From contig OX442322.1 in the NCBI GenBank assembly GCA_949358305.1, positions 4,774,001 through 4,838,000 on the forward strand: a DNA stretch of 64,000 bases, read 5' to 3'. Shown in pieces: positions 4,265-60,896 of this stretch. The stretch's first letter is position 1; each line of letters starts with the position of its first letter. Made by a program: the position numbers and the translations under genes. The notes under the pieces were generated by a model. It was given only the letters and a program-made list of their open reading frames with translations. It was not told where the DNA came from and did no database searches. The DNA comes from Strigamia acuminata (Eukaryota > Arthropoda > Chilopoda > Geophilomorpha > Linotaeniidae).

Positions 4265-6211
4265 CTGCCTCCAGTTAAACTGAAGTTTAGGTTGCCGGAA
4301 GAGAAACTGCAACCACATTTGCCAGGAGTGAAGCTCCCGAACGTTTTGCCACAACCTGGACAAGCACTTTTGAATCCAGTTGCAACAATAGCTGCACTCG
4401 TTTGGAAGAAAACGGAAAAGAGCCGACCAACTGGACATAAAGATTATGAATACACAATAGAAGGATACGATAAGCCTAAATTACGGTTGATACCGGATGT
4501 GAAACGTTATTGTGCGGATCATAATCTACGTGTGCCAGAACACCTTTTTGACGACAAAAGGAAAAAGAAGTCTTCTGAGTCGAATACGACAATGGATGAT
4601 TTAATCCCCGACCTAGAAGCAAATCACTTAGAAGTTTACATTCCTACACGCTTTGAACAGATAGCCACTCTACCTGAGAAGGAAGAATGGAATCACGCAA
4701 TGTGCGACGAAATCGACACGATGCATGAACGCGAAGTATGGGAATTGGTACCACCGCCACCCGACACGAAGATAATTGGGTGCAAATGGATTTATACAGT
4801 TAAGCCAAATGACAAAGAAGTCACAAAATATAAAGCGAGACTTGTGGGGCAGGGCTTTTCACAAATCTATGGCGACTCATATGAGGAAACTTTCTTACCT
4901 GTGGTGGACTTTTCGATCGTTTGCTTCATGTTTACGCTACTAGTTTGCATGTTGAAGTGGTCTTACGTTCAGGCGGATGTGAAGTGCGCCTACCTTTACG
5001 CGAAACTACACAAAACGATATACATGCGTCAACCGAAAGGTTTTATTGCTGAAGGGAAAGAAAACTACGTTTGCAAACTCCTTAGAGCCATATACAGATT
5101 ACATCAATCAGGGAGAGAATGGGGCATAGAATTGGAAGACACCCTATTGAAACTCGAATTGGAGCATGTAAATTGGTGTAATTGTGTCTATAAATTTGGA
5201 AACGTTGCGTATTTAATTGTGTACGTTGATGACATCGTCGTTTTTGGCAAACAACTTGAAGACGCAATGAACATACTCAACATGATAAAGACTCAATTCG
5301 ATCTTGTGATTTTAGGACAGACAAAGAAGCTATTAGGAGTCGAATTCTACTCATATAATCGACAAATGGTTCTACACCAGAGGTCATACGTCGATAAACT
5401 CTTGCTGAGATTTAAAAATGATCTGGAACCAGTGAAGATCAGGTCACAGCCAATGACCAAATCAACCGTACTCACCAAACAGGAATGTCCGAACACATTA
5501 GAAGATTTCAAAGGGATGGAAGGAATACCTTATCCAAGTCTACTCGGGTGTTTTGCTTTCACTGCATCGCGTACGAGACCAGACATGACATATGCCGTCA
5601 ATATCTTGAGTCAATTCCAATCCAATCCAGGATGGGATCACTGGATCGTACTGCTGGACTTACTGAGTTATCTACGGACGACGAAAAATTTTGGTTTGAT
5701 GTTATTTCCAAACGATCGAGTTGAAGTCATCGGCTACAGTAACTCAGATTATGCCAATAACAGAGATGATCGCATTTCCGTAGGAGGAACTCTTGTAACT
5801 TTGGGAAGTGCACCCATTTATTGGAGGACCTTCAAGCAACGAAATGTAACGCTGTCGACCATGGAAGCAGAATATGTGGCCCTCACAGAGACAGTGAAGG
5901 ACTACATATGGATCGTCAGAGTTTTGCACGAGATCGTTCCCGACTTAGCGGACAAGTTCTACCATCGTGTTTTCTGTGACAATATCTCAACCGTCGATTT
6001 CACGAAGTCTTGTGTTGAGAACCGAAAAACAAAACATATAGACATTCGCTACCACTTTATACGGAAACTTGTCAAAAAGGACAATCTCCACATTGTGCAT
6101 GTAGGCACAAAGTGCAATTTTGCTAATATTTTCACTAAGTCTGTCGATAAGACAGATCTTATACAGTTCTGCAATTGTTTTCTGGTCGATATTGATTCTT
6201 TACGCACTTGA
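4265..6211 (+). pseudogene. pol: Copia RT and RNase H with MBD-like segment (Cop1)
   Basis: The frame continues from the integrase. Nucleotides 4397-4555 encode VWKKTEKSRPTGHKDYEY, then KLRLIPDVKRYC and LFDDK. This segment aligns with the MBD-like domain of CopJ and CopG and sits between integrase and RT. RT motifs follow: IGCKWIYTVKPN, ARLVGQGFSQ, DVKCAYLYAKL and the catalytic box YVDDIVV (about 5222-5242). RNase H has STMEAEYVAL and CDNISTVDF and ends NFANIFTKSVDKTDL, the usual Copia C-terminus. The first RNase H acidic position reads YSNSDYA where YxDxDW is usual, so it may be inactive. The stop is directly followed by the polypurine tract. Confidence 0.88.
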
Positions 6212-20785: not shown

Positions 20786-20808
20786 GAATGGCGCAGACGG
20801 TCGAGAAG

Positions 20809-23892: not shown

Positions 23893-23943
23893 TTCTTGCT
23901 TTGGGTATGATGTAATCACAGGTTAGAATCAGTTATTCAACTT

Positions 23944-33296: not shown

Positions 33297-33367
33297 GGCA
33301 TGACCTGCGGGTCCAGTGTGATATTTCTTCTTTTTAATTTCCGCGGCTGGCGCAGACGAAGCTGAAT

Positions 33368-36300
33368 TTATTTCGGCGACGCCTGCGCTTGGGAGTTTTT
33401 TGCTAGATTAGTATTTAACTCCATCATCATTTTCATCAAGGTTTGCATGATGCCTTTTTCTTTGACGGTTTTTTCGCATTTGTCGGAGTAGTGACCGTAT
33501 TCTCCGCAGCTGTAACATTTGATGTTACTTTTATCCCCTGTGGGAGTGAATCCCGGTTTTTTCGGGACGAAGGGCGTCGGGAATCGTCTTTTTCCTCCCA
33601 ATGCCCCTCTCGCTTTTGTTGCCTGCACGTGTGCTCTGAATTGTGCGATTGCTAAGGCCCGGTGTGCATGGTGCAAATAGGGACCTTGATCGTCGCATCC
33701 CGTCGACAAGTTTTCGAGGTGCTCATTTAGGGCTTCCTCGTCGCTTGATGCTGGCTCCTCTTCTTTAGCCGTGGCGAGAGGTGTTGTCTCTTCGACTTTC
33801 TCCATCTGGGTGGAGTCCGTCGAGGTCACCTGCATCGCCGTTGCTGCCGGTGCTTTCTTTGGGGCAGCTATCGGGTTGGCTGGAAGAATACTGCCTGCTT
33901 TAGGCGTCAGCATTCGTCCGAAGGATGCTTCGGTGAGACTCATTATGCCGCTCAAATATTCACTTGGCCTCATTAATTTCTCTGAGGTCTTGTGACGTTC
34001 GGCGCTCGTCTGCAACCGTTTCTCGTGCGCGTCAGCTTCCTCCGGGGGCAGAGTGGCGTAATACCGCTGTTCTATTTCTAACGTGTTTGTTAGAAGATAG
34101 TTACTGACATCTTGGTAATCGCCAGTGCGGGGTGCACGCATGTCTAGCAGAATTCTTTGCGAGTGGGCCGATAATCCTCCGTAAAAGATCATCGTAAAAC
34201 CAGCGGGGTTTATTTCGTACGGCGCTCTTGCAAACAGGAGTTTCGCTCGGGCGTCGTAGTCGGCTAATGTTTCTCCTGGGGCTTGCCGTAGACCACGTAA
34301 TTTGTTACTGATCTCGTCTGGAGTCTCGCCGTATCGGAGATCGAAACGGACGAGAAAATCGTCCCAGGTTGGGTTTTTCAGTCCCTGATACCATTCTCGA
34401 GCTGACCCCGTGGTTAGCTCCACTAGCCCGTGGGTTAGCATGTCGGCGACGGTGGCTTTTGTCGCTTTCTTGATACGCATTACTTCGTCCAGGAAGCGGT
34501 CTCCGGCCTTCCACGAACCGTCAAATCGCGTTTGAATATAGTGTTGCCAGCGGATGTTACCCGTGGCTTCACTGCTTGGTTCGTTTCGTACGCCATATTT
34601 GCGCTTAACCCTCTCTCCAGCGCGATTATGTTCGTCGCCTGGATGGCCTAGATCGATTCCTTCTCTTCTGAAAGAGTTCAGCAGGGCTCGGCCTAGCTCA
34701 GACATCGTGTAATGTCGGCCAGATGAGTCCTGAAAGTTCCCTTCCTCTGAACGAGGGTTGGAGCTCCGGGAAGAGCGGTCTGAAGCATTCGGCCGGTTCG
34801 ACCGGTGCCCATCGCTGTCTTCTTGACTCCTTCCTGTAGACGGTCGACTCGGATGGTCGTCGTCCGACGAATCGGAGGGCTCGGAGGGATCTCCTTGGGG
34901 GTGAAACCTCGGCCCTCTCGGTGGGGTCTCTCCGCCAGCCTTCTTCTGTTTCGAGCCTCCGGATGGCGGCGGCTCCCCTCCGTCGTTGTTCTCGTAAAAA
35001 GAATGCCATCTGTTTTCCTCGCTTTCGGGGCGTTCCCGATTTTTATTTGCGTTTTTCTTTTCGAGTAACGCGTCGATGGCTGCTCCCGTCTCGGATCTTT
35101 TTGAGGGGTGACGGTCCTTTGTTTTTGGGACCGACTCGTCTCTCTTTTGAGATTTCCCCCTTTTCGCCGTTTTTGCCGGCTTTGTTGCACCTTCTCCTGT
35201 GTCGGTATCAGAGCCGCTGGGGGGTTCTGGTTTCCGTTTCAGGTTTTCTTCATTTTTCTTCCTGTCCGAGACGTCTTGTGCGTACTCTTTCTGGAACTTT
35301 TCTGTCTCCTTCTCCCAGTTTTCGGCTTCCCATCTTTTTTGCTCATCTATTATAGCTTGTTTCTTCGCTTTGTACTCTTCGGTCCATCTGACTCGATCCC
35401 ACTCTTCTTTCTCTTTCAGAAACTGTTCTTTTTCTTTTCTGGCTTCCTCTTCTCTCAACCTCTCGCGATGTTGTTCTTCCCATTTCTGATGTTGTAGAAT
35501 GGCCTCTTTTCGCAACATTTGTAGTTTTTCTGTTTTTCTTTGAGCTATTAGCGCTTGAAATTGGTCCTCGTACTCTTGAGCTTCTCGATGTCGCCCTTCT
35601 ACTGTTGCGTTCCATTCTTTTCGAATTTTAGCTTCTCGTTCTTCCCTCATTTTTTGGACCAGTTTCTCTGTTCTCTCGGTGGTTCTTCTCTCGCGTTGCT
35701 CCCTTTCTTCCTCTTCCTTCCAGAGTTCTCGCCGCTCTGCGCTCAGCCTTCGTTGGCGACTAGTCGCTTCTTGTCTGGCTTCCTCGCGGGCCTTCTCTCT
35801 GGATTCGTGAAGTGTTCGGTTGGGGTCTGGCGCGAAACCTCCGGTGTCACTGGGCGTTACCTGGGGCATGGGCGTCTCCGCTGCTGGTCTTGCGACCGGC
35901 GTCGGGGCTTGTGCCGCACAGATAGCGTCAGTGAGTAGGGTAATCGATTCCCAGACTGACGTTCCTACTGGAATGTCTATCATCGCTTTCAGTTGGGCAG
36001 CTTGCCGTGTCAACCGAATTAGGTGAGATACCTCGAAGGAAACAACCGCAGGACTCGCCGTAACTCGGGGGGTTATCGGGGTCCCGCCGTCGTTTTTTCG
36101 TGGGGTTTGCTCCACGGACGTCTGAGCCGTGGGTGGCGATGGGTTCGTGCCGACCGTGACCGTTATTTTCGGAGCTTCATTCGTCTCCTCGGTCATCAAT
36201 ATCGATACTCGTCCTGGCGATACGTCGCGAATTTCTTCTCGATTTTCTATGGCTTCCGGATCGGTATCCTCGAAGGGTTGCATATTCAAGGGAACCCGCT

Positions 36301-36508
36301 CTCGCTCTGGCCCGTCTAGGGCCGCGAGCGATGCAGCTTGCTCCTCTTTCTGCGCCTTCGCTCTCCTTTTATTCGCTCGGGCTTTCGCCTTTGCGGACAT
36401 TTCAGGGACGGGACCATCCGATCTCAGGTGGTAGTCGGAGGTCCTTTTTCCCTTCTCGGGCATTCTCTGCTCGGTTTCAGACGTGGATTGCTCGTCTTTG
36501 TCTGACAT
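33368..36508 (-). CDS. gag: GypB Gag with long coiled-coil-like helix and zinc knuckle
   Basis: This 1046-residue protein starts MSDKDEQSTSETEQ. Residues about 235-410 are almost entirely Glu, Arg, Lys, Gln and Trp in a helical, coiled-coil or single-alpha-helix pattern (REKAREEARQEATSRQRR and onward). A Ser/Arg/Pro-rich linker follows. The capsid-like part from about 652 (IRWQHYIQTRFDGSWKAGD, GSAREWYQGLKN, DLRYGE) is close to GypA. The nucleocapsid knuckle is CYSCGEYGHYSDKC near 1000. The shared capsid with an unrelated N-terminal half shows modular replacement between sibling elements. The Gag stop overlaps the -1 frame that leads to Pol. Confidence 0.93.
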   Translation of the reverse strand: MSDKDEQSTSETEQRMPEKGKRTSDYHLRSDGPVPEMSAKAKARANKRRAKAQKEEQAASLAALDGPERERVPLNMQPFEDTDPEAIENREEIRDVSPGRVSILMTEETNEAPKITVTVGTNPSPPTAQTSVEQTPRKNDGGTPITPRVTASPAVVSFEVSHLIRLTRQAAQLKAMIDIPVGTSVWESITLLTDAICAAQAPTPVARPAAETPMPQVTPSDTGGFAPDPNRTLHESREKAREEARQEATSRQRRLSAERRELWKEEEEREQRERRTTERTEKLVQKMREEREAKIRKEWNATVEGRHREAQEYEDQFQALIAQRKTEKLQMLRKEAILQHQKWEEQHRERLREEEARKEKEQFLKEKEEWDRVRWTEEYKAKKQAIIDEQKRWEAENWEKETEKFQKEYAQDVSDRKKNEENLKRKPEPPSGSDTDTGEGATKPAKTAKRGKSQKRDESVPKTKDRHPSKRSETGAAIDALLEKKNANKNRERPESEENRWHSFYENNDGGEPPPSGGSKQKKAGGETPPRGPRFHPQGDPSEPSDSSDDDHPSRPSTGRSQEDSDGHRSNRPNASDRSSRSSNPRSEEGNFQDSSGRHYTMSELGRALLNSFRREGIDLGHPGDEHNRAGERVKRKYGVRNEPSSEATGNIRWQHYIQTRFDGSWKAGDRFLDEVMRIKKATKATVADMLTHGLVELTTGSAREWYQGLKNPTWDDFLVRFDLRYGETPDEISNKLRGLRQAPGETLADYDARAKLLFARAPYEINPAGFTMIFYGGLSAHSQRILLDMRAPRTGDYQDVSNYLLTNTLEIEQRYYATLPPEEADAHEKRLQTSAERHKTSEKLMRPSEYLSGIMSLTEASFGRMLTPKAGSILPANPIAAPKKAPAATAMQVTSTDSTQMEKVEETTPLATAKEEEPASSDEEALNEHLENLSTGCDDQGPYLHHAHRALAIAQFRAHVQATKARGALGGKRRFPTPFVPKKPGFTPTGDKSNIKCYSCGEYGHYSDKCEKTVKEKGIMQTLMKMMMELNTNLAKNSQAQASPK

Positions 36509-37853: not shown

Positions 37854-38537
37854 GAACACGGAAAAGCGAGGAGAATCGTCTGCAACACGTCGTAGGATTA
37901 TTTCCACGTGGGATTTCGTCGATTGGACGATCTACGAGGTTGCAACAAACGTTTCAGCGACGTTTCGGGATTTTTGGCGAACATTACGAGATTTTTGGAC
38001 GCGTTTCGTGCGACGGGCACAAACGCATCACGGATTAGCCCGGGACGGGTATCTGTGCAACGAAGGGACCGGATAAGTCTTGTGCCAGGTGCACAAGTGA
38101 ATTGCAACGATTCGGATCGACGTTTTAACGGCGTCTACGTGGGATTTTGCGACGCGAAAATCCCGCAAACAAGAAGACAACTTGCCAGCAAAGTGTTATT
38201 GTTTATTTTCTGGGTTGTCGTGAAACTTTGTATAGTTTATAAGTTTTTGTTTGGGCCTATTAGTGTATTCTGCACCCTTTTGGGTAGTCACCCAAGTGCA
38301 GTCTTATTTCGGTTTGGGCTTGTCCGTGGTACAAGGTAGCCGTCCCGCGCCACCAGGTTGGCGGTCGGAAGCTATCAGGGCGACCAAACTCGAGTATTGA
38401 TCCTTCTTATAAGGATTTTCCCGGGAGGATTGTTATTTTTCTCCTTCATTTTGGTTGGGGAAAATTGTGTTTTTGTGAATTTTCCAAAGTGGAAAAGTGT
38501 ATTTATTTGTGCAAAGTGCTGCAAATAATCAGTGAAA
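37854..38537 (+). other. CopG leader, second part
   Basis: It continues the leader interrupted by GypA and is homologous in inverted orientation to the CopD leader (about 52605-53240). Shared blocks include CCGGGACGGGTATCTGTGC and the AT-rich stretch just before the ORF (GGAAAATTGTGTTTTTGTG). No supported ORF is seen. Confidence 0.75.
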
Positions 38538-41500
38538 ATGTGTTTTGTGCCATCACTAAATATATTAGTGAGTGTGGTGTTGTTGAGCGGTACACGTTTT
38601 GTACAAACAGTGTTTTGTGCGACGAAAAGGTCTGTAACAGACAGTGTGAATGCTTTTAGCAGGCAGCCAATGGATGACACACACAAGCCACAATTGGAGA
38701 TGAAAACACACGAACAGAATGTCTTTAACGGACATACAGTGTATAACGCACTGAAAGATCATCTGAAAAGGAAAGATGATGTCTGTGAAGAAGAATATTT
38801 AGAGTTTGATTCTGATTTAGACAGAAATGTAAAATTACTAACCCATTTAATTTATAAGAGCGCATTAACACATGACATTGTAGTGTTGGCAGGGGCCATT
38901 AATGATCTAATTTTAGCGATTAGTAAAATGCATGTGCATAAAGGGGAAGCGAATGGGGTTAGCAGTAACAAAGTGCAGGGCACTAGTGATGGTAATCAGA
39001 ACAGCAACGTGGTTGATTCAAATGTGATTTTGAATGCCATGGATGATGTGCAAAACATCAAATCCCAACATGGATACGGGGATTTAGAATATTTGAACAA
39101 GGTTCAAATTAGAAAAGGAAATAAAGAATTGAATTTCACCACAATTAAAGGTAGTAACCCCCTTAATTCTGTTAAAACAAAGGAAGAAATTAGGCCTAAA
39201 TTCACAGAAATGGAACATTCGAACCGGGTTCGGAATGAAAAGAGAGAGGGGGACCCAGATAATATGAAAAAGGGTTTTGTAAGCAATAGGAAGTTGCATG
39301 GTGCAACCTTAATTAAGGGAAGTGGTCTTCCAAAGGGGATTTCAGGGAAATCCAAAAGAGGTTTGAGTAACCAAAAGTCAAGTATGACAAGAATTAAACC
39401 AAATGATCCCTTGAATTCTGATGCTAGAAATCAGAAAAAGAGTTCTAAAAATGTTACAAAGCGGAAAGAAAAGTTTTACAAGGACAGGGCTCTTCCATTC
39501 TCATTGTGGCATACCCGGATGGGGTATTTAAATGAGGAAAGTGTTTACGCCATGAATGGGTCACAAGATGTTTTTGGTGTTCAATTGGAGAACACAGGGA
39601 CCTCTCCTATGACAGGAGATTTGGCAAAGAAGAATGTTCTTCCAACACGGATGAATAAAGCAAATGGGACATTGTATTTGGTACATCTGAGTGTCTGGGA
39701 TGTCCCACATGCACAGGGAGACAGATATGTCGTATTTGTTGATGACCATTCGGAATATGTTTGGTTAAGACCGCTAAAGAAGAGTGTACTGGGTGAATTT
39801 CAAGAATGGTTATTTGAAATTGGACAAACAATGGAGAAAATAGTTAAGAAAATTAGATTAGGTCCCGAGATAACTTCTTCACAAGAGGAATGGAATGAAT
39901 TCACCCAAGTTAGAGGAATTGAAATTGATGAAGAGGTATTTGATGATTTAGATGTCAATTCCATCTTAAAAAAGACAAATGAGAATATCACAGAAAGAGT
40001 GGAAACTTTAATTTTGGAAAATGGATTTCCAAGCAATTTGTGGTTGGAGATGGCCAACACAATGGTTTACTTGTGGAATAGGACCCCCAGGATTAGTTTG
40101 GATTGGAAATCCCCGTACAATATATTGTATAACAGATGCATTTCTGTGCGACACCTGAGGTGTATTGGGTCAAAAGTTACGGTGTTTTATGTTAAGGATG
40201 GACTGAAACACTCCTTGGTGGGTGCCTTAATTGGGTATTCAAAATTTGGTAGGAAATATCGGATATGGGATCCGGAAAGGAACAGAGTATTTCAGTCAAA
40301 TAATGTTAAGATACATGAGTGGAGTTATTGGCACGAGGGGGAATTGAAACCCTCTCTGAAAGTATCCAACAGTTGCAATAGTTGCATTGAGAGTTTGAAA
40401 GCTGAAATTTCATCGAAGGTTGGTGTGCCAATATCCCCTCATCAAGAAGCCCCATCAACATTAGACTTGTTGGAATTAGAAAATCCCCCATTGTCGTTAA
40501 GTAAAGAAGTCGACATTAATGAGTGTGGAATTATTGAAAACGAGGGGGAACTCTTAGAGAGAATTGAATGTGATCTCTTAAAGACACATGTTGATTCCAA
40601 AGTGGAAACGGATGCGTTTTCTAGAGTTGATAAAGTTGGTTTGTCGACACCTAGGGAAGTTGACAGAGAAGGAGTTTATGAGGAAAATTTCCCATTGTTA
40701 CCGAGCGGAGAAATTTACGTTGATAAGTGCGAAAGCATTGAAAACGAGGAAAAACACTTAGGAACATTTGTCACAAGTGATGAAGAGGTTTATGAGGGAC
40801 TTACTTGTGAACAGGAATCTTCCTCTTTAGTGAATACAGTGGAAGATAAAATTTCCCCATCATCAAGCGAGGATAAAATGATTAAGACAGAGGGGGAGTT
40901 TGAAAGGGATTTTAGCAATAAGGAGAATAATTTGCCAATAGAAATCCCTCCAGAGTTAACACATGAGGAGTCTGAGCCAATTGCAAACGAAAGGGAAAAA
41001 TTGGAACAGTTTACATTGGAAATTGAGCCCAATTCTGATGAAGGGTTTGGGCAGTTTGATCCCTTGACAGTTTGTGAAATCACTTCGACGTCACTGGAGG
41101 ATGACATTTTCCCAACACCGATAGAGACTACGGGTGTGAGTGACTACAAATCCATTGGGATAGAGGGGGAATGCCTAAAGACTAAAAGACGTAAGAAAAG
41201 ATGTAAGAAAGCTAAGAATATTGCTTTAATGAAAACAAATGACGATGAATATCAATTAACGGTTAATGAACCGATATTGGATGATGAAATACCTAAAATT
41301 GAACAGAACTTAAGTCTCACGGCTGAGAACGACATGGGCGTAAGACTTAAACAAGACTTAGATATGAGTAGGTGGTGGAGACAAGCCACAACACACCAAA
41401 TAGATAGTTACACAGAATGGGTCAGTGTTATCTATATTTCACCGAGCAATGACCGGCTTGAGACTATGAGTGATGTGAAAAGGTGGTGTGTTGCGGAAGA

Positions 41501-41633
41501 TTATGTATTTGATTTAAGCCTATTCGATTTTTGTAACAGGGATCCAGTACACCCAGCATATCCTGTTTGTAACATGAGGTTGATTGAACTCAAGAATTCA
41601 AAAATAATCAGAGACAAATCCATTGAATTCTGA
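38538..41633 (+). CDS. CopG ORF: relic integrase plus MBD-like domain, no RT
   Basis: One open frame of 1031 residues. The N-terminus MCFVPSLNILVSVVLLSG looks like a signal peptide or anchor rather than Gag, and no zinc knuckle follows. A charged region with degenerate repeats (EYLNKVQIRK, NPLNSVK, EMEHSNRVRN) precedes the GAG-pre-integrase motif FSLWHTRMGYL (about 321). The integrase fold is recognisable (VVFVDDHSEYVWLRPL, NGFPSNLWLEMANTMVYL, SVRHLRCIGSKV), but the catalytic positions are gone: HLSVWD for HMDxWG, IRLGPE for RTDxG, ITERVETL in the Glu region. A long acidic linker leads to an MBD-like segment (RWWRQ ... SVIYISPSND ... DVKRWC ... LFDF, about 944-1000), then the stop. Staying open without catalysis suggests a non-enzymatic role. 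Confidence 0.85.
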   Translation: MCFVPSLNILVSVVLLSGTRFVQTVFCATKRSVTDSVNAFSRQPMDDTHKPQLEMKTHEQNVFNGHTVYNALKDHLKRKDDVCEEEYLEFDSDLDRNVKLLTHLIYKSALTHDIVVLAGAINDLILAISKMHVHKGEANGVSSNKVQGTSDGNQNSNVVDSNVILNAMDDVQNIKSQHGYGDLEYLNKVQIRKGNKELNFTTIKGSNPLNSVKTKEEIRPKFTEMEHSNRVRNEKREGDPDNMKKGFVSNRKLHGATLIKGSGLPKGISGKSKRGLSNQKSSMTRIKPNDPLNSDARNQKKSSKNVTKRKEKFYKDRALPFSLWHTRMGYLNEESVYAMNGSQDVFGVQLENTGTSPMTGDLAKKNVLPTRMNKANGTLYLVHLSVWDVPHAQGDRYVVFVDDHSEYVWLRPLKKSVLGEFQEWLFEIGQTMEKIVKKIRLGPEITSSQEEWNEFTQVRGIEIDEEVFDDLDVNSILKKTNENITERVETLILENGFPSNLWLEMANTMVYLWNRTPRISLDWKSPYNILYNRCISVRHLRCIGSKVTVFYVKDGLKHSLVGALIGYSKFGRKYRIWDPERNRVFQSNNVKIHEWSYWHEGELKPSLKVSNSCNSCIESLKAEISSKVGVPISPHQEAPSTLDLLELENPPLSLSKEVDINECGIIENEGELLERIECDLLKTHVDSKVETDAFSRVDKVGLSTPREVDREGVYEENFPLLPSGEIYVDKCESIENEEKHLGTFVTSDEEVYEGLTCEQESSSLVNTVEDKISPSSSEDKMIKTEGEFERDFSNKENNLPIEIPPELTHEESEPIANEREKLEQFTLEIEPNSDEGFGQFDPLTVCEITSTSLEDDIFPTPIETTGVSDYKSIGIEGECLKTKRRKKRCKKAKNIALMKTNDDEYQLTVNEPILDDEIPKIEQNLSLTAENDMGVRLKQDLDMSRWWRQATTHQIDSYTEWVSVIYISPSNDRLETMSDVKRWCVAEDYVFDLSLFDFCNRDPVHPAYPVCNMRLIELKNSKIIRDKSIEF

Positions 41634-50125: not shown

Positions 50126-50253
50126 TGGAGTATATTGATTGTAACGCCATCTAGTGTTCTTGTATTGAGATTATGTATCTGTGTTCGAGATTAAAACTTG
50201 TTAACTTTGCAACCATCATGGAGTTCACTGCCTCGTGATTTCGGTATATTACA
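50126..50253 (+). repeat. 3' LTR of GypE (128 bp)
   Basis: It is identical to the 5' copy. The polypurine tract CTGAGGGGGAAGAGT lies just before it. Confidence 0.95.
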
Positions 50254-51436
50254 CAATAACCTCGGAATTATTCATGTCAACCCCGTGTGTTGACTCTGGA
50301 GGATTTTCTACAAGCAATTTAATTTCCTCATCACTAAATCTCCTTTCTTGTTTCAATTCTTTCGGTTTCTTATTAACCTCCCCCTCTGTCTCAGTCAGTT
50401 TCCCCTCGCTTAAGGATGTGGAGATTTCATCTTCCACTGTGTTCACTAAAGTGAGTTCCTCATAAATCTCTTCATCACTTGTGGCAAGTGTTTCTAAGTG
50501 TTTCCCCTCGTTTTTAATACTTTCACACTTATTCATGTCAACTTCTTCACTTAACGACAATGGGGGATTTTCTGGATTCAACAAGTCTAATGTTGAGGGG
50601 ACTTCTTGATGAGGGGACATTGGCACCCCAACCTTCGATGGAATTTCAGCTTCCAAACTCTCAATACAACTATCTAGGTTGACAAATTTCAGAGAGGGTT
50701 TCATTTCCCCCTCTTGCCAATTATTCCACTCATGTATTTTAACATTATTCGTTTGAAATACTCTATTTCTTTTCGGGTCCCACACCCGATATTTCCTCTG
50801 TGTATTCGAATATCCAACTAGAGCACCCATCCATGAACACTTCTGTCCATTTTTAACATGAAAAACCTCTATCCTTGACCCAATACACCTAAGGTGTCGC
50901 AAAGAAATGCATCTGTCATACAGTATATTGCATGGGGTTTTCCAATCTAAATCAATCCTGGGCACTCTATTTCGTAAATAGACCATTGTGTTGGCAATCT
51001 CCAACCACAAATAACTTGGAAATTTATTTTCTACAATTAAACTTTCCACCCCGTCTATGATATCTGAATTAGCCCTCTCGGAGATGCAATTAGCCATTGG
51101 GTTATCAGAATCTACATTATCAATTGTAATCCCGAAATTCTTCATTGTTTCTACCCATGCTGTTAATTCTTCTATAGAAAAATCTATCTCAGGGCTCAAA
51201 TAAACCTTATTCACGGTTCCTGTCAAGCATTTAATTTCATTTAACCAACTTTGAAATTCTATTAAAATGCTGTTTCTCTTTAATGGTCTAAACCATGCAT
51301 ACTTAGAACAATCATCAATTATAATGAGATATTCATCCCCAGTTGGGGCCCTCCAAACACTCAAATGTACAGCTTCTAAAGCTGTCCTGTCATTATCTCT
51401 TTGTGTTGGGTAAATATTTGCCTTTACTTTCTTCAC
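50254..51436 (-). pseudogene. CopD ORF, middle part: relic integrase
   Basis: It reads AVHLSVWRAPTGDEYLIIIDD, NKFPSYLWLEIANTMVYL, SLRHLRCIGSRIEVF and RKYRVWDPKRNRVF, collinear with CopG. The catalytic Asp and Glu positions are lost as in CopG (HLSVW, VYLSPEIDFS, ISERANSDI), so the loss is older than both copies. An acidic linker follows and is cut by GypE. The left part of the frame is shifted relative to the N-terminal half. Confidence 0.8.
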
Positions 51437-52604
51437 TTAAATACCCCATCCGGGTATGCCACAATGAGAATGGAAGAACCCTGTCTTTGTTAAACTTTCC
51501 ATTCCTAGAATTCTTTTTCTGGTTTTTAATACCGGAATTTAAGGGATCACTCTGTCTAATTCCTGTTGTCATACTTGACTTTTGGTTATTCAAACCCCTT
51601 TTAGACTTCCCTGGAATGTCCTTCAAAGAACCAATTCTATTCGGGTCCCCCTCTCTCTTTCTATTTCGAATCCGGTTCAAAAATTCCATTTTTGCAAATC
51701 TATTTGCATTTCTATTGTTCCGACTATCGCCATTAAGGGAGTCACCACTTTTAATTGTGGTTGCACAATCCAATTTGTTCAATTCCCTATTCTGTTCTAA
51801 AGGAGGAGGATTCTTTTTCCCGGTTTTTACAAAAACCCTTTGTCGATTCTGTCTACAAGAACCTTGAATGTTAATTTGATTAACTTTGTTCCCCTCGTTC
51901 CTTTTATTCCGAACCTGGTTCAAATGTTCCATTTCTGTCAATTTAGGCCTAGTTTCTTTCTTTATTTTAACAGAATTAAGGGGGTTACCACCTTTAATTG
52001 TGGTGAAATTCAATTCTTTATTTCCTTTTCTAATTTGAACCTTGTTCAAATATTCTAAATCCCCGTGTCCATGTTGGGATTTGATGTTTTGCACATCATT
52101 CATGGCATTCAAAATCATATTTGAATCAACCATGTTGCTGTTCTGATTACCATCACCAGTGCCCTGCACTTTGTTACTGCTAACCCCATTTGCTTCCCTC
52201 ACATGCATATGCATTGCACAAAGTGTCAAAACTAGATCACTAATGGCCCCTGCCATAACATCAATGTTTTCTGTTAATGCGCTCTTACAAACTAAATGGG
52301 TTAATAACAATACACTTTTGTCAAAATCAAAACACAAATCAAATTTTTCTTTTCCAAGAACACTAATTTTCCTTTTCAATTGTTCATTAAGTGTGTTACA
52401 CACTGCCTGTCCGTTAAAGACATTCTGTTCGTGTGTTTTCATCTCCAATTGTGCCTTGTGTGTGTCATCCATTGTCTGCTTGTTGCAGGCACTCACATTG
52501 TCTGTTAAAGACCTTCTTATTGCACAAAACGCTTGTTGCACGAAATTTGCACTACCAAGCCACAGCATACTCACTAACAAATTTAGTGATGGCACAAAAC
52601 ACAT
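51393..52604 (-). pseudogene. CopD ORF, N-terminal part
   Basis: It starts MCFVPSLNLLVSMLWLGSANF, the same hydrophobic N-terminus as CopG. It continues through the shared region THKAQLEMKTHEQNVFNG and degenerate repeats (EYLNKVQIRK, EMEHLNQVRN, KMEFLNRIRN) to FSLWHTRMGYLSEES. After a deletion the frame is lost. Compared with CopG it carries one or two more copies of the roughly 35-residue repeat. There is no Gag zinc knuckle and no protease DTGA motif. Confidence 0.8.
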
Positions 52605-54203
52605 TGCTTCAATTATTTGTAGCACTTTCACAAATTAACACTTTTCCACTTTGGAAAATTCACAAAAACACAATTTTCCCCAACCAAAATGAAGAAGAAA
52701 AATCACAATCCACCCCGGGACTTATCTCAATAAGTGAGACGCAAAACTCCACACAGTATTTCCCAAGTTCCGACCGGTGCGCCTGGGTCCGCGGGACACT
52801 TGGTGGCCAGAAATAGCCTGTGTGGAAATAGGATTCCGCTACTCGAATGAGTAAAGGGCGGAAAACAAACAAAGGGACCCCAAAACAAAACCTTAAATAA
52901 CTATACAAAGTTTCACGACAACCCAAAATAATAATACACTCAGTTGGCACGTTGTCTTCTTGTTTGCGGGATTTTCGCGTCGCAAAATCCCACGTAGACG
53001 CCGTTAAAACGTCGATCCGAATCATTGCAATTCACTTGTGCACCTGGCACAAGACTTATCCGGTCCCTTCGTTGCACAGATACCCGTCCCGGGCTAATCC
53101 GTGATCGGCGAATCTCAATTCGCACGTCGCGTGCGCCAAATGCTCGCAAAAATCGAAATGTCTTTGAAAAATTCTGTAACGTCGCTGAAACGTTAGTTGC
53201 ACACTCGTAGGACGTCTACACGACGTAAGTCCACGCTTGGATAATCCTACGACGAGCTGTGAACGATCATCGTTCGTTTTCACCAGACTGGCATGGACGG
53301 CGCCATCTTGGATTCGGCTGCACCGCACATCATGGTGAAAAATACATGAATAAATAATATTTTGATTCTTACTGTCCCTTTTGGCAATCCTATGCTTATC
53401 ACACGAAATTTCCTGTCGAATTCCGCTGATTCTCGACGCTTTATCGTCGAATGCAACGCCGCTTTCGTCGCGGCCGAAAAATGCTCGTTTCCGACGAAAA
53501 AACAATTCGATTTATTTTCAAACCGCTTCCTATCGCTTCCTGGGATCCTTATGTGGTCCCACGTTGTAATTTCCAGTGCTGAAGGACGTTGAAACTGGCG
53601 AAAACACTCGTAATGTGTTGGCGAAATATGTTCGCGCACGTCGCCAGTCAAAAATCCTCGGTTCGACCAAAAATTGTCCTCGAATCAACTCGAAACCGCT
53701 TCCAAACGATTCGCCGTGCCTTTTTGCACTAAAACGATGCCAAATCCAGCGTTGTAAACCGCTGGGCGACTTGGAAACAGTCTAAACACGGCCGCCAACT
53801 CGTATTGCGATGAGCGCCGCCATCTTGGAATTTCCCGTCATCGTGGATTTGAAATAACGAAAAACCGGTGTTAATTTCACTAAATAAATTCGATAAATAC
53901 TTTCTAATGTTCCTGCAGTCCAGGCAACTAATCCCACGATGATTCCAAGCTGTTTCGCCGCCAAATTCGTTGACAATCGCTTCTCACTGCTTCGGGTCGC
54001 AATTCGCCGACTTCGCTGCTTTACGAAGCACGCGAAACTCGCTCGTCCGGTCGGAAAAATCGTCGCTCTTGTGCTGCCCGCCGCTCCGGCAATTCCCGTC
54101 GACGCGTACAAGACGTTCCCGGCCAGAATTTCGTCGCGAATTCGATTCCGAGCGTTAAATTAACGTAGCATTCACCAAAACCATCCTCTGCTACCATTAT
54201 CAG
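52605..54203 (-). other. CopD primer-binding site and long leader
   Basis: The site AACCATCCTCTGCTACCA is at 54179-54196, followed in element order by about 1.57 kb of leader with no supported ORF. CGCCATCTTGG occurs at 53301-53311 and 53819-53829. It is nearly identical to 43451-44655 and an inverted homologue of the CopG leader. Confidence 0.8.
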
Positions 54204-54688: not shown

Positions 54689-55696
54689 GAATCACGGTAC
54701 CATCCTCGACGATGCCCATCTTGCGGGCGAATTGCATCGCGGGGTCGAAACGCGACAATTTCTTGCGTTTCATCTGAGTGTCCCGCGTGTCTGGCGCTAG
54801 GACGCGACGCTCCCCGGAAGATCTGCCACTCGACTTCGATCGTGCTTCTCTTGCTTCCTTCGCTTCTATTGCTTTGAGAGCGTGTTCGGGAAGGGGAATT
54901 CCCCGCGCTTCGCAGCGAGCGAAATACCGCTCTTTGCGGTCTTGTTTCCGCTGCTCGCGATGAGTCAGCGGACGTCTGCCGGCACGGGGACGAGAGACTC
55001 GCTCTTCGTCACCCGAAATCCAGACTTCTCGAGTCTCTTTACCGTCTTTCACCTGACGGTTCACAAACATTCTTGGTCTGTGATAATTCGCGGAGTCGCA
55101 CGGTGGCTGCGCTGACGTTCCGGCTCCATCGTTTACGGTCGAGTGCTTTTCAATGCACTGTTTCTTCGACCGACCCGGGGAGCGCGATTCGCTGCCCCCG
55201 GTTCCCTTGGAGCGCTTGCGCTTCCGTGGGAAATTGTATTTGGGGCCAAATAATGCAACTGCCACATTTCGGCTTGTGACGTGAGAATCCCCATTCTCGG
55301 TCGCCACTGTGGCGTAACTTCTCGCCGAATCTGCTCGCACCACAGATGTATGTCTGCGGTACTCATGCCTTCGTCCTGCAAGACACGCTCTGCAACCGCC
55401 GGCGCAGTGTCGATTAGCTGCTGGCGGTAGTGTTGGTACACTTCTTCGCGGGCCTCCTCGGTCTCGGCCGCTTGCCACGCGAACAACACATGCTCCTCCA
55501 CTGGCCTGCCGGAGTATTGGCTCGACAGGGCCGAGTGGAAGATTAGCGACTTTGGGTCGTCGCTGCGAGCTAACTCTGCAGCGACAACAGCTCGAACCGA
55601 CTCCGGAAATGCATCCAGGAGAGAGCAGTCATTTACCCATCGCTTGGCGAGGGCGCGCGAAAATAATACGCGAATTTGATACGGATTGGCATCGTC
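54689..55696 (-). pseudogene. GypC ORF3, middle part
   Basis: It reads on the minus strand from the CopJ duplication as DDANPYQIRVLFSRALAKRW, DDPKSLIFHSALSSQYSG and EEHVLFAWQAAETEEAREE to SQAEMWQLHYL. A small deletion shifts the frame near 55240-55255. It continues GPKYNFPRKRKRSKG, PRMFVNRQVKDGKE, LTHREQRKQDRKERYFARCE and FDPAMQFARKMGIVEDG, where CopD cuts it. It is closely similar to GypA ORF3 residues 35-390. The NLS-like basic cluster and the RKERYFARCEARG block are conserved. Confidence 0.88.
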
Positions 55697-56180
55697 TGAC
55701 GATGATAAGTGAAGTTGTCAACGCCGGGAAATAAACTGGAGACGAAACGAAAGTCATTTTGTGCCTGAAAACCGCACAAACGCGTCGGCCATCTTTATTC
55801 AGGCAAGAACAGGTGAGCAAGTGAATATGTACAGGTGTCGAGGCTATTTGCCCTCGATCTAAAAGTAGAACAAATCATCCTGATGGAAAGGTTGATTTGT
55901 TCTTTACATAACCAAAGTAAAGATAACTCAAAGCCAGCATTAACACTGGATAATGCACTGGGGGAAATAATAGATAAACTAAATCATAGCAGACGACAAC
56001 TCGAAATCCATTGTGAAACATGAGCCAACTGAAGTGCTAAGCATGTATTGAAACAATCCAAAGCAGTTGGCTCCCGATTTTGGGACATTAAACAATGCGA
56101 CACGAATTCCGCCTTTATCGCACTTAACCGGAAAAGGTGCGACGTTAACTACGTGAAATGAAAACTGCTTTGACCCAACA
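55697..56180 (-). repeat. 3' LTR of CopJ (484 bp)
   Basis: On the minus strand it runs TGTTGGGTCAAAGCAG...CATCGTCA. The polypurine tract is at 56181-56190 (minus strand GAGGGGGTTC). GGCCATCTTT lies at 55788-55797. Confidence 0.93.
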
Positions 56181-56189
56181 GAACCCCCT

Positions 56190-56350
56190 CTAAACAGTTA
56201 TCCATTTCAATCAAAAATGTGATCGCATAATGCGTCAAGACGTGGGCGGGAAACCCACTTGGTCAAAATGTCTGCGATGTTCAGCTCGGACTTTATTCCG
56301 ATCGAAGATGTAAATCCCCTTAACCATTTCCTTGCCCCAATCCTCATTGC
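56190..56350 (-). pseudogene. RNase H C-terminal tail left in CopJ, out of frame
   Basis: In the frame shifted from the main ORF the sequence reads ARKWLRGFTSSIGIKSELN, then IADILTKWVSRPRLD and DHIFD-stop. This is the standard Copia RNase H ending, as in CopH (NIADIFTKWLS). It overlaps the 3' end of the main ORF. It shows that CopJ derives from an element with a full RT-RNase H region and marks the right edge of the deletion near 56350. Confidence 0.85.
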
Positions 56351-59312
56351 TGAGACCAGTCATGGTTTCTCCTAAGGTACCTTGTTTTAAGTAACAAAAA
56401 CTAGCGAATGGTAGAGGAACTTGTGCCCGCGGTTTCGCTTTAAAGTCGAATAACCCTGCATCATATTCGTAGTCTTTTTCCTCACACCACCTCACTACAT
56501 CGATGCGACTTCTAAATCGAGTGCCCGTCGGTGCAATGTAGTGAATGAAAACATGTCCGGCTTGTGCTCCGGATTTCCTAATATATTCTACTCGTTTCCA
56601 TTTCGTGATATCAATTTGTTGTAATTCAACTCCCCCAACTGCCCCAGTATGCCTGCCCCTTACATTAGGAGACTGTGCCACTAACTCTTCATATCTGGCA
56701 TCATCGTCACTGCCTTCACTTGGAGTAGCATCTCCTGCAGTGTGAGCGACATCCTCTGGTAAATTAGGGTCTAATTGGGGTAATGGAGCAGGTTGAGACG
56801 TAGACGCCTCATCCTCTGGCTCCGTCGTCGTTGCAGGAATAATCTGTGGCGTGGGAAGTCTAACAGTTTGTTGCGTTGTCGACACAGGGGGACTTTGAGG
56901 AACTTCCTCCTCTTCTGCTTCGGATTCGCTAATTAGATGAATGTACTCATCAGATCCAAACCCCCTCTTAGCCTTAACGCTTCCGAATCCTTTTGGAACT
57001 GATTGTGTTCCCTCGTACCAATATTGATTCTCATCAATTTTCACATGTTTCGATGCAAAGACTTTGTTCTTGTGTGGGTCCCAAATTCTGTATCCAGCTG
57101 TGGTTATTGCATAACCAATTAGGGCCCCCGACCAAGCTCTGCTGTCTAGTTTGCTTTTCCGAGTTTGCGCTGGGATGTGCACATACACTTTCGACCCAAT
57201 ACAGCGCAAATGTCGCACTGACATACGACGTCCGAAAAATACATTATAGGGAGTCCGTCCCTGTAAACTTGAGTGAGGGTATCTATTTTTCAAATACACA
57301 ATGGTATTTGCCAACTCAGCCCATAAAAAGTGTGGAAACCCATTTTCCAATTCCATAGCTCGCACCCCCTCTATGACGGTGCGATTCGATCGCTCCGCGA
57401 CCGAATTCATCTCGGGGCTGTAGGCGTTGGTCCGTTCACACTTGATTCCGCAAGATTTAGTATAATTATCCCATTCTTTGGACACAAACTCACCCCCCCT
57501 ATCTGTGCGGATCGTTTTAACCTTTCTAGAAGTCGCACGCTCGACTTCTGCTTGCCATACTTTAAAATGGGCAAAAGTTTCACTTTTATGCTTTAGAAAA
57601 CTGATCCACATATATCTAGAGTGGTCGTCCACAATAATGAGATAATACTCAGCCCCCCCTAAGGATTTGCATGATGCGGCACCCCAAAGATCCATATGAA
57701 TTAAGTCTAAAATTCCCTTGGACTTGATCTCGGCTATTGGAGAAAAGGTTGCTCTAACCCGCTTGGCCCTATTGCACGCATCACAAGGAGAAGCCACTTC
57801 ATTGCTTAATTTAACGCCAAAAATTTCTGTGGATTTTTGCATCATCACAATGCCCTTTGAGTTCAGGTGTCCCATTCTGCCGTGCCAAAAATCCATCGGT
57901 ATCGCTTTTTCGTTGTCTAATTTCTTCCCATTGTCTTCATTATTTGCCGTTAAAGCTGTCTTAATTGGTCCCCCTACTGTTGGTTTAGTCTGTTTCACTC
58001 CAATCTGATTAACCCCCTGTACCACATTACTAAACGTGCGCGCATTGTTCGCATTGCTCGCATTATTCACTGCGCCATTTGTTGCAACAATCGTTTTCCC
58101 ATTCGATTGCACATTAGAAGTGGTTAGTTCACACTTAACTTTAGGCATGGTTAATACAGTTTGTTTTACACAATTAGTTATGCCAACTGCCTCCTTCTGC
58201 GCAGGGATGGCAGTTGCATTTACAGAGGTGACAGACACATGTCCGTTAACTTTATATAGACGATTACTAAGTCGTACCGCTGTTATCGATGGGTCTTCAA
58301 TCTTTTTCCGAAATAAAGTCATTTTGCCGTCTGCAACGTATGTGCGTAAGCCAGCCTCATCAGTGCGCCCCAGAGAGATAAGATTCTTCCGAAAATTCGG
58401 AGCATAATAGACGTTGTTCAAAGTAACAACTCTACTCCTGTTGCCATATGTGGAAATTAACTCCACAGATCCAATCCCTTCTATTTTAGAGGTCCCTTCC
58501 CCTAACTGCACTGTGTAATTGAGAGGCTTAAAATTTGCAAACCACTCTTTGCAAAAGGCAAAATGGTCAGTAGCACCGGTATCGACGTACCAAGCGGTGT
58601 CTACTGGGCCATTTGACAAAAATGACGATACAGGAGGCGGTGGCTCCTCCACTTCCATGTAGAGAGAGTCTGGGTCGTCAATCCAATTGTCGACTAAGTT
58701 GGCTTTGCGCCCACCACGTCCTCCTTTTCCACGATTTTTCCCACGTGGTTGTCCTCTAAATTGAGATGTTGGTCCAGCGTTGGACGACTGAGGATTCTGT
58801 CCAGTTTTGCGTTGCGAGGGACATTCTCTTGAGAAGTGACCCGAACCGCCGCAATTATAACATATCACGTTAGGTGATTTGACAATTTTCCATTGCATTG
58901 CTCCGTAGTGTGCCAATGGTTGCTGCACACACGAAGCCCCCAATCCACGGTCCTCATCTCGTTCATCTCCACTTGAGAAATCTGTGTCCGATGAGGTGTC
59001 CATCGGTTGGACCGGCGGGGGATGCAATCTGTCATATTCCATTAAGAATTCCTGGCGAATCCTTTCCAGATTAATGTCCTCCTGCGGCCAATCATCAATT
59101 CTCGCCTTCATAGGCTCGTATTCAGGCCCTACACCATCCATATACTGGAAAATGACGAAAATTGGAGTCAATTCCAGGCCCGCTTCGTTAACCTCGACCG
59201 CTTTCTGATCCACACGGTCCAAAAACTGTCGCATTGTCTCATTATCGTTCATTCTTAAGTCTAGAAACTGCCGTCGCAGTTGAGCTCTCTCAAATCTCGG
59301 AGCTACTGCCAT
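56235..59312 (-). CDS. CopJ Gag-protease-integrase-MBD-like polyprotein
   Basis: It starts MAVAPRFERAQLRRQFLDL, a Gag start; open sequence upstream lacks a good ATG. It is 1025 residues. Gag has MNDNETMRQFLDRVD and the zinc knuckle CYNCGGSGHFSREC (about 150). Protease is WYVDTGATDHF (about 240). Integrase has HGRMGHLN with CDACNRAK, and an intact triad in LIHMDLWGAA, IRTDRGGEF and SVAERSNRT. Residues about 900-961 read WKRVEYIRKSGAQAG, HYIAPTGTRFRSR and GLFDFKAK, which matches the methyl-CpG-binding fold signature very well. RT is absent. The final 30 or so residues translate the RNase H tail in the wrong frame. The long uninterrupted frame suggests recent selection. Confidence 0.9.
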   Translation of the reverse strand: MAVAPRFERAQLRRQFLDLRMNDNETMRQFLDRVDQKAVEVNEAGLELTPIFVIFQYMDGVGPEYEPMKARIDDWPQEDINLERIRQEFLMEYDRLHPPPVQPMDTSSDTDFSSGDERDEDRGLGASCVQQPLAHYGAMQWKIVKSPNVICYNCGGSGHFSRECPSQRKTGQNPQSSNAGPTSQFRGQPRGKNRGKGGRGGRKANLVDNWIDDPDSLYMEVEEPPPPVSSFLSNGPVDTAWYVDTGATDHFAFCKEWFANFKPLNYTVQLGEGTSKIEGIGSVELISTYGNRSRVVTLNNVYYAPNFRKNLISLGRTDEAGLRTYVADGKMTLFRKKIEDPSITAVRLSNRLYKVNGHVSVTSVNATAIPAQKEAVGITNCVKQTVLTMPKVKCELTTSNVQSNGKTIVATNGAVNNASNANNARTFSNVVQGVNQIGVKQTKPTVGGPIKTALTANNEDNGKKLDNEKAIPMDFWHGRMGHLNSKGIVMMQKSTEIFGVKLSNEVASPCDACNRAKRVRATFSPIAEIKSKGILDLIHMDLWGAASCKSLGGAEYYLIIVDDHSRYMWISFLKHKSETFAHFKVWQAEVERATSRKVKTIRTDRGGEFVSKEWDNYTKSCGIKCERTNAYSPEMNSVAERSNRTVIEGVRAMELENGFPHFLWAELANTIVYLKNRYPHSSLQGRTPYNVFFGRRMSVRHLRCIGSKVYVHIPAQTRKSKLDSRAWSGALIGYAITTAGYRIWDPHKNKVFASKHVKIDENQYWYEGTQSVPKGFGSVKAKRGFGSDEYIHLISESEAEEEEVPQSPPVSTTQQTVRLPTPQIIPATTTEPEDEASTSQPAPLPQLDPNLPEDVAHTAGDATPSEGSDDDARYEELVAQSPNVRGRHTGAVGGVELQQIDITKWKRVEYIRKSGAQAGHVFIHYIAPTGTRFRSRIDVVRWCEEKDYEYDAGLFDFKAKPRAQVPLPFASFCYLKQGTLGETMTGLSNEDWGKEMVKGIYIFDRNKVRAEHRRHFDQVGFPPTS

Positions 59313-60407
59313 TTTGCAGGAGATGTAGCACAAAACACAAAATTCACACAATTCGTAGCACTTTGCACACAAACAAATAACACTTTCCCACCAAAATGTA
59401 GGCGAATAATATACACTACTTCCCGGGGTACAGCTCAATAAGTGAGCACAACTAACTTGACCAGTCGCTACAAAGGCTTCCGTCCGACACACCTGGGGTC
59501 GCGGGATTGCCCCCTTGCTTCGAGCAAGCCTGGCCAAGAATAGGATGACACTAGGCGAATGCCTAAAGGGTGCCAAACAAACAAAAGGTCCCAAAAGCAA
59601 AAACTTAAATTTATACAAAGTAATTCGACCCCGAAAATGCAATAAATAATACGTTGTGAAGGTGGCACGTTGTTTTCCGTTGTTGGCGGGACAAATTCGT
59701 CGCCAAAATTCCAACGGCGATCCACCGACGACGTACGGTGCTCCAACGTTGCAAACGAGCGTGCGCGTATGCACTAACCCGCCCAGAATACGAATTTCGC
59801 GTGTATTCTGGTTCCACCAACTTCCTGGTCTTCACTATTGCACTCGTACGTGCGAATAGTGGCTCTTGATCCCGACAGTAAACGTCGTTTGCGCGTGCTC
59901 GTCTCGTACGATGCCGCACACACGTAACTCGCTCGAAAAGTGTCCGTCTCGTTAGTTTCGCCAAAATTCCGCCTCGAAATAAATGCCTGCTTGTTCCAGA
60001 CGATTCCCACGACGATAATTAGTCGCCACGTTGTGTTTTCCTTCGCTGGAAAACTCCACGACGTGAAGAAACGGCCCAAACTCTGCTTAAACTCGCATCG
60101 CACTGGGGGCCGCCATCTTGGAAATGGTCGGCAGCGAAGCTCGACGAATGGCCATTTTCGCATGAAATGAGCCAAAAATACACGATTAATATGCGAAATT
60201 AAATGCTTACTGTTTCTAAATGTCCTTTCCAACGCCCAAACACTCGTTGGAACACAGAATCGGCGATGTGAACGTAAACACGACGTTCGCTCGTCGCGTC
60301 AAAGCGCGGATACGGTTCCGCCCAAATTGACGTGTCCGGCGTCGATTTCGTTATGAAATCCGCTGGAAAACTTCACGATTCGGCCATCAACCATCCTCTG
60401 CTACCAC
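59313..60407 (-). other. CopJ primer-binding site and leader
   Basis: AACCATCCTCTGCTACCA at 60389-60406 is one base from the LTR. The leader is about 1.08 kb, includes CGCCATCTTGG at 60111-60121, and has no supported ORF. Confidence 0.75.
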
Positions 60408-60891
60408 TGACGATGATAAGTGATGTTGTCAACGCCGGGAAATAAACTGGAGACGAAACGAAAGTCATTTTGTGCCTGAAAACCGCACAAACGCGTCGGC
60501 CATCTTTATTCAGGCAAGAACAGGTGAGCAAGTGAATATGTACAGGTGTCGAGGCTATTTGCCCTCGATCTAAAAGTAGAACAAATCATCCTGATGGAAA
60601 GGTTGATTTGTTCTTTACATAACCAAAGTAAAGATAACTCAAAGCCAGCATTAACACTGGATAATGCACTGGGGGAAATAATAGATAAACTAAATCATAG
60701 CAGACGACAACTCGAAATCCATTGTGAAACATGAGCCAACTGAAGTGCTAAGCATGTATTGAAACAATCCAAAGCAGTTGGTTCTCGATTTCGGGACATT
60801 AAACAATGCGACACGAATTCCGCCTTTATCGCACTTAACCGGAAAAGGTGCGACGTTAACTACGTGAAATGAAAACTGCTTTGACCCAACA
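60408..60891 (-). repeat. 5' LTR of CopJ (484 bp)
   Basis: It is nearly identical to 55697-56180. Visible differences are AAGTGATGTTG for AAGTGAAGTTG and TTCTCGATTTCGG for CTCCCGATTTTGG. Confidence 0.93.
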
Positions 60892-60896
60892 TCGTC

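Follow-up and report, generated by a model that had tools for sequence, protein, structure and literature searches.

A methyl-CpG-binding domain behind the integrase of a Copia element lacking a detectable reverse transcriptase in Strigamia acuminata

What is a methyl-CpG-binding domain (MBD) doing in the polyprotein of a Copia retrotransposon? The question is raised by a 64,000-nucleotide stretch of Strigamia acuminata DNA (contig OX442322.1, positions 4,774,001 to 4,838,000 of the forward strand), which we call the window and whose own numbering is used throughout. It contains, on its minus strand, a long terminal repeat (LTR) retrotransposon of 5195 bp at 55697-60891, and the open reading frame (ORF) of this element encodes at 56430-56600 (minus strand) a true MBD, placed in frame after the SH3-like domain of the integrase. 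We consider it fairly probable that the element is non-autonomous and belongs to an arthropod Copia lineage whose polyprotein carries a host-type MBD between integrase and reverse transcriptase (RT), and that the MBD serves in tethering.

A preliminary description of this locus had proposed an MBD adjoining the integrase from residue patterns, and profile searches bear this out. Pfam PF01429 matches 56430-56600 with an E value of 2.7e-10 and 40.1 bits, above its curated cut-off of 21, and Pfam places the domain after the SH3 domain in the same ORF; the motif run WKR...FKAK lies at 56600-56433. In a phmmer search of the Protein Data Bank (PDB) the window MBD matched MBD1 (6d1t) at 6.3e-7 and MBD2 at 2e-6. 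When a profile of 15 aligned MBD stretches was used instead, MBD2 was the best match (2e-14), followed by MBD1 (2.7e-13), MBD3 (1.7e-11), MBD4 (7.1e-10), MeCP2 (1.6e-9) and BAZ2B (7.2e-5), and the Pfam MBD profile was matched standalone by 14 of the 15 stretches (two from the window). An AlphaFold2 model of the 84-residue window stretch has a mean predicted local distance difference test score (pLDDT) of 80.3, with 83-93 in the core blocks, and a predicted template modelling score of 0.62; it contains strands at residues 17-22 and 32-37 and a helix at 47-57. The residue numbers first given for the domain, 900-961, fit counting from an ATG some 154 codons inside the listed frame; counted over all 1179 codons of the ORF, the domain lies at about 1059-1115. 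The parts of the element are as follows.

55692..55696, no strand: target-site duplication, left copy, TCGTC
55697..56180, minus: 3' LTR, 484 bp, TG...CA, from self-comparison, with 4 mismatches against the 5' LTR
56181..56191, minus: polypurine tract AGAGGGGGTTC, read directly ahead of the 3' LTR
56235..59774, minus: ORF of 1179 codons from the first listed start, with Gag (part), protease, integrase and MBD
56238..56429, minus: short stretch like the pre-RT segment of locus L050 (by reading), ending in DQVGFPPTS and a stop
56430..56600, minus: MBD, by Pfam, phmmer and the family profile
57015..57236, minus: integrase C-terminal SH3-like domain
57414..57704, minus: integrase core (rve)
58350..58592, minus: protease-type beta-barrel (Pol_BBD) with VDTGA
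58815..58865, minus: CCHC zinc knuckle
59028..59291, minus: C-terminal half only of Gag, positions 80-166 of 172 of the Retrotran_gag_2 profile
60391..60406, minus: primer-binding site TGGTAGCAGAGGATGG, read directly 3' of the 5' LTR and presumably the complement of the initiator-Met tRNA end
60408..60891, minus: 5' LTR, 484 bp, from self-comparison
60892..60896, no strand: target-site duplication, right copy, TCGTC

The hallmarks of a Copia element, namely LTRs, primer-binding site, polypurine tract and a 5-bp target-site duplication, are all found. Within the ORF the GAG-pre-integrase profile was matched between the protease barrel and the integrase core, and the integrase residues D, D and E are present with 35 residues separating the last two (by reading). 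The N-terminal half of Gag was detected neither in the profile scan nor in the three frames of the 5' region checked by eye. An idea that the element was a three-LTR recombinant was dropped, as the pair of 484-bp LTRs and the target-site duplication were established. The order in the window copy is Gag (part), protease and integrase, and RT and RNase H profiles were unmatched in the last 195 codons of the ORF at E values up to 1. The integrase-MBD-RT arrangement that the preliminary description had expected is therefore not that of the window copy; RT and RNase H occur after the MBD in another locus of the genome, L050, instead.

A retrotransposon family with such a domain is already in print. 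De Mendoza, Pflueger and Lister (2019, Genome Res 29:1277-1286) reported, by the title of their paper, a functionally active MBD captured by an arthropod retrotransposon family, and this title is cited in PMC11721087, PMC9246332, PMC8226279, PMC7343188, PMC11292947 and PMC8821070. The initial statement that no Copia element with an MBD had been described falls with that title. What the window adds is a family without RT and a clade without the residue Tyr34, both of which the 2019 text may mention.

We searched the element's own genome (237.5 Mb) with the MBD profile and scored 150 of 1092 first-look candidates. The profile matched all 150 scored places, 119 of them in open frames of 1500-1718 amino acids, and at loci whose frame could be traced the order was integrase SH3, MBD and RT start (by reading). 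The absence of RT from the window copy could mean that this copy was once complete and lost its RT after insertion, since a single deletion would look alike if one copy alone were seen. However, in a second search, made with the window MBD itself, 20 of 150 scored places (the window's own included) are 98-100% identical to it, lie in open frames of 201-1198 amino acids and in no case have a frame of RT-bearing length, and in all eight family loci that were read (window copy included) the ORF ends without RT and with nearly identical last residues. Later loss is thus largely refuted and in our estimate highly improbable. Among the seven other loci, six match the window copy through the LTR, stopping at about its end (query 949-954) and differing beyond, and in the seventh (L039) the match stops inside the LTR at query 844. 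Because the same RT-less ORF end recurs in all eight loci and the match reaches about the LTR end in six of seven, the shortened form has probably transposed with an RT from elsewhere, that is, in trans; the window copy's own target-site duplication was counted for this as well. A candidate partner is L050: its MBD stretch is 83% identical, a single frame encodes its MBD, RT and RNase H, and over 484 bp its LTR is 98.6% identical to that of the window element.

Twenty wider loci were fetched, among them L009, a window-edge stretch without an MBD hit. In four (L012, L013, L014, L023) both LTRs are complete and 98.1-100% identical, and 5-bp duplications were read beside them; L022 shows the two LTRs but no duplication, the pair of L015 is cut off by the stretch, and in the remaining 14 no LTR pair was found inside the stretch. 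An MBD between SH3 and RT was not found in any of eight Copia elements sampled from 150 RT-profile rows. In an integrase tree of 23 sequences these eight split with support 100 from the other 15, which comprise 11 with an MBD, two window elements with degenerate MBD-like stretches and two window fragments that gave no MBD-like hit in a six-frame scan of the window. The same eight also split, with support 99, from 12 MBD-side rows in an RT tree of 20 sequences; 17 such rows had been planned, and L006, L014, L021 and L026, in which a pattern found no RT start motif, and the window ORF at 38532-41633 were left out. A single capture of the MBD in this lineage is the simplest reading. A search of the MBD region against a collection of 5.8 billion proteins gave 62 candidates, none at E 0.001.

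Two further Copia-type ORFs of the window contain weaker MBD-like stretches.

41331..41576, plus: degenerate MBD-like stretch in the Copia-type ORF at 38532-41633, below the Pfam threshold
4292..6211, plus: Copia-type ORF in which a very weak MBD-like stretch (E 0.019) precedes RT

The ORF at 38532-41633 (plus strand) encodes an integrase without its catalytic residues (by reading) that keeps the SH3 domain. Its MBD-like stretch occurs at five places with 96-100% identity, four of them in a 1034-amino-acid open frame, so this family, with an apparently dead integrase, has multiplied. The ORF at 4292-6211, in which the Pfam MBD was unmatched, branches off first among the MBD-side rows of the RT tree. 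Two further ORFs lie at 50249-52631 (minus strand), and the integrase part of one of them, 50249-51436, groups with that of 38532-41633.

Another reading is that the MBD is a general module, one that binds nucleic acid or helps to assemble particles and plays no part in chromatin. The pair of CpG-contacting arginines is kept in 14 of the 15 aligned MBDs and in the window copy, where both (in RKSG and RS) had been pointed out before. The domain is also strongly constrained. We tried 12 pairs for the ratio of nonsynonymous to synonymous substitution rates (dN/dS), of which one was skipped, three were saturated and eight gave a ratio; the MBD ratios are 0.02-0.14 as compared with 0.16-0.39 in the linker just upstream, with the MBD lower in eight of eight pairs, where the pairs have members in common and some dS values are close to saturation. 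These ratios indicate that the MBD is under purifying selection. The loss of Tyr34 throughout one clade and the retention of an MBD-like stretch in the 38532-41633 family despite its lost catalytic residues speak for a general module, which, set against the arginine pair and the constraint, we regard as improbable.

Asp32 and Tyr34 (MBD1 numbering) mark the methyl-CpG-selective type of MBD, and some MBDs do without them. Asp32 is present in 13 of the 15 aligned MBDs and Tyr34 in four (L001, L003, L004 and L014), the other 11 having Ile, Val, Trp or His. In the window MBD Asp32 is replaced by Phe, as first described, and the YY pair that had been read after it is incomplete, its first Tyr (Tyr34) being His. 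In the RT tree, which does not include L014, the families that lack Tyr34 fall together with support 99, and the window clade has lost this methyl-selectivity residue. A passage in PMC9520026 attributes the lower methyl selectivity of MBD3 mostly to a change from Tyr to Phe at the matching place, and the host's own MBD2/3-type gene has Phe there (two exons, by reading). Because Tyr34 is replaced, as Tyr is by Phe in MBD3, we predict that the MBD of the window clade recognizes CpG or DNA, probably with little preference for 5-methylcytosine (5mC), in an MBD3-like manner.

A search of the genome with PF00145 matched 11 exons, which belong to five loci. Against the PDB, two of these loci proved to be DNMT1 (E 2.9e-52 and 5.9e-42) and a third DNMT2 (4.5e-24), and two more look DNMT1-type by reading only, the four DNMT1-type loci being L067, L068, L069 and L071. 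The host MBD2/3-type gene has one MBDa hit and MBD exons. The window element has an observed-to-expected (o/e) CpG ratio of 1.06; 18 fetched loci, taken together with their flanks, span 0.92-1.56 and the methyltransferase loci 1.39-1.76. In five copies of the window family, transitions occur in 38 of 1091 comparisons at CpG sites and in 51 of 4336 at other C/G (odds ratio 3.0); over all eight copies, poorly aligned ones included, the excess is 1.7-fold. These figures allow some, not dense, methylation of the elements. They also bring up the possibility that the MBD acts against host silencing, occupying methylated element DNA or competing with the host MBD2/3. The presence of MBD2/3-type and DNMT1-type genes, the raised CpG transitions and an element ratio below that of the methyltransferase loci, which fits some germline 5mC, speak for such an activity, but the MBD is fused behind the integrase in one frame and stands directly before RT in L050, a CpG ratio near 1 argues against heavy methylation, and 11 of 15 members have no Tyr34. 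We therefore consider an anti-silencing role quite improbable, more so than a general binding module.

The preliminary description had suggested that the domain could target integration complexes or particles to methylated or CpG-rich chromatin. We compared the locations of 146 MBD-Copia and 113 other Copia elements with ORFs of at least 1000 codons, the MBD-less status of the latter resting on eight of 150 rows read (76 of the 113 match the ORF length of one of the eight). The same-class share of the three nearest neighbors is 0.735, whereas over 2000 permutations it averaged 0.506 and never exceeded 0.598. Rows of the two classes are never closer than 3.7 kb. The median distance to the nearest kinase locus is 1.97 Mb for MBD-Copia and 1.00 Mb for other Copia (nominal p 1.2e-5), with MBD copies farther away on seven of the nine contigs that have both classes and a kinase. 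TTAGG arrays were found at the start of contig C1, the end of C8 and the start of C11 (16 contig ends; the start of C9 reads N), and in the case of C1 and C8 MBD copies abound at the end opposite the array. MBD-Copia elements are thus set apart from other Copia and occupy regions poorer in genes. The ends of C9 and C11 also carry a 280-bp tandem repeat (L060, L066).

A number of observations weigh against tethering by the MBD. The window copy has neither Asp32 nor Tyr34; the stretch between MBD and RT has dN/dS of 0-0.04, about the MBD level in seven of eight pairs, which means that the MBD is not alone in being constrained; the element CpG ratio near 1.06 would speak against dense germline methylation; and the CpG density of flanks ranges from 1.9 to 10.7 per 100 bp (12 flanks, no control set). 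As for location, the class of other Copia hangs on the few rows read, C3 and C8 show the opposite direction, their MBD copies being no more distant from kinase loci than other Copia, the four MBD copies of C11 occupy its telomeric half, and the 1626-amino-acid MBD family is an exception (0.33 MBD neighbors, n=4). Because the MBD families all belong to a single lineage, the association amounts to n=1. Finally, Gypsy/BEL-type elements (H2C2 profile) co-locate with MBD-Copia, a mean of 0.97 lying within 500 kb of an MBD copy and 0.30 within 500 kb of another Copia; since these elements share the regions, the location needs no MBD, and we rejected it as proof of MBD targeting. The clustering may reflect retention rather than targeting: MBD-Copia elements would insert broadly but survive only where genes are few. 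The concentration of Gypsy/BEL-type elements there suits such differential survival, but other Copia elements with ORFs of at least 1000 codons are not concentrated there, and we hold survival to be a serious possibility that falls somewhat short of probable.

MBD-directed targeting is nonetheless plausible: of the original suggestion, the position after the integrase, the purifying selection and a distribution unlike that of other Copia stand in its favor, and the Gypsy/BEL distribution and the two missing contact residues do not. The tethering reading draws further on the place of the MBD between SH3 and RT in relatives, the DNMT1-type host genes and the raised CpG transitions. In it, relatives such as L050 would provide RT in trans, the MBD would stay on the integrase side after polyprotein processing, and it would tether the integration complex to CpG-bearing heterochromatic DNA, by analogy with the Ty5 targeting domain and chromodomains, the MBD of the window clade having presumably lost its methyl preference to become an MBD3-like reader. 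A bolder version, which we think rather unlikely, is a division of labor in which RT-less elements with integrase and MBD live on the RT of relatives whose LTRs they share and their MBD has shifted from 5mC-selective to MBD3-like CpG reading; if so, the element would have changed which chromatin its integration complex reads.

The arthropod elements of 2019 are said to be Copia elements that bind CpG-dense methylated DNA, with insertion biases that reportedly differ between a centipede and a spider. By title, they resemble the window element in having a captured host-type MBD in the polyprotein; at the level of that title, the window copy differs in being without RT and RNase H, a detected N-terminal half of Gag, Asp32 and Tyr34. 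Among PDB entries the family profile matches MBD2 best, and MBD2 and MBD3 are subunits of host chromatin complexes, whereas the window MBD sits in a polyprotein. Chromoviral Gypsy integrases carry appended chromodomains that read histone tails; these too are chromatin readers on an integrase, but their target is the histone tail and their carrier Gypsy, not Copia. In Ty5, a Copia-type element of yeast, the targeting element of integrase contacts Sir4 and gives a bias to heterochromatin, as stated in a passage of PMC7175516. This targeting domain is a six-residue protein-binding peptide, in contrast to the folded, DNA-reading domain that the window MBD would be. Known non-autonomous LTR elements offer a second comparison. 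TRIM, LARD and BARE-2 elements are mobilized in trans, and like them the window copy has intact LTRs, a target-site duplication and an incomplete enzyme set; unlike them, it keeps the integrase-MBD part and has lost RT. The RT-less family would be an unusual non-autonomous type that keeps the integration and targeting half. Retrotransposons with epigenetic readers make it possible to test directly if host chromatin marks guide the choice of insertion site, and this question can be asked within one species because the genome holds long-ORF families of one lineage with and without Tyr34, MBD-less Copia and DNMT1-type genes.

The window also contains two Gypsy-type elements with long open frames at 16715-23919 and 29265-36508 (minus strand), neither of which gave an MBD-like hit in the six-frame scan. 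At L030 (about 3.1 kb), just past the 3' end of an MBD-Copia element, there is a short peptide resembling the end of the MBD-like stretch of 38532-41633 (E 0.057), perhaps reflecting insertion into or beside a related element.

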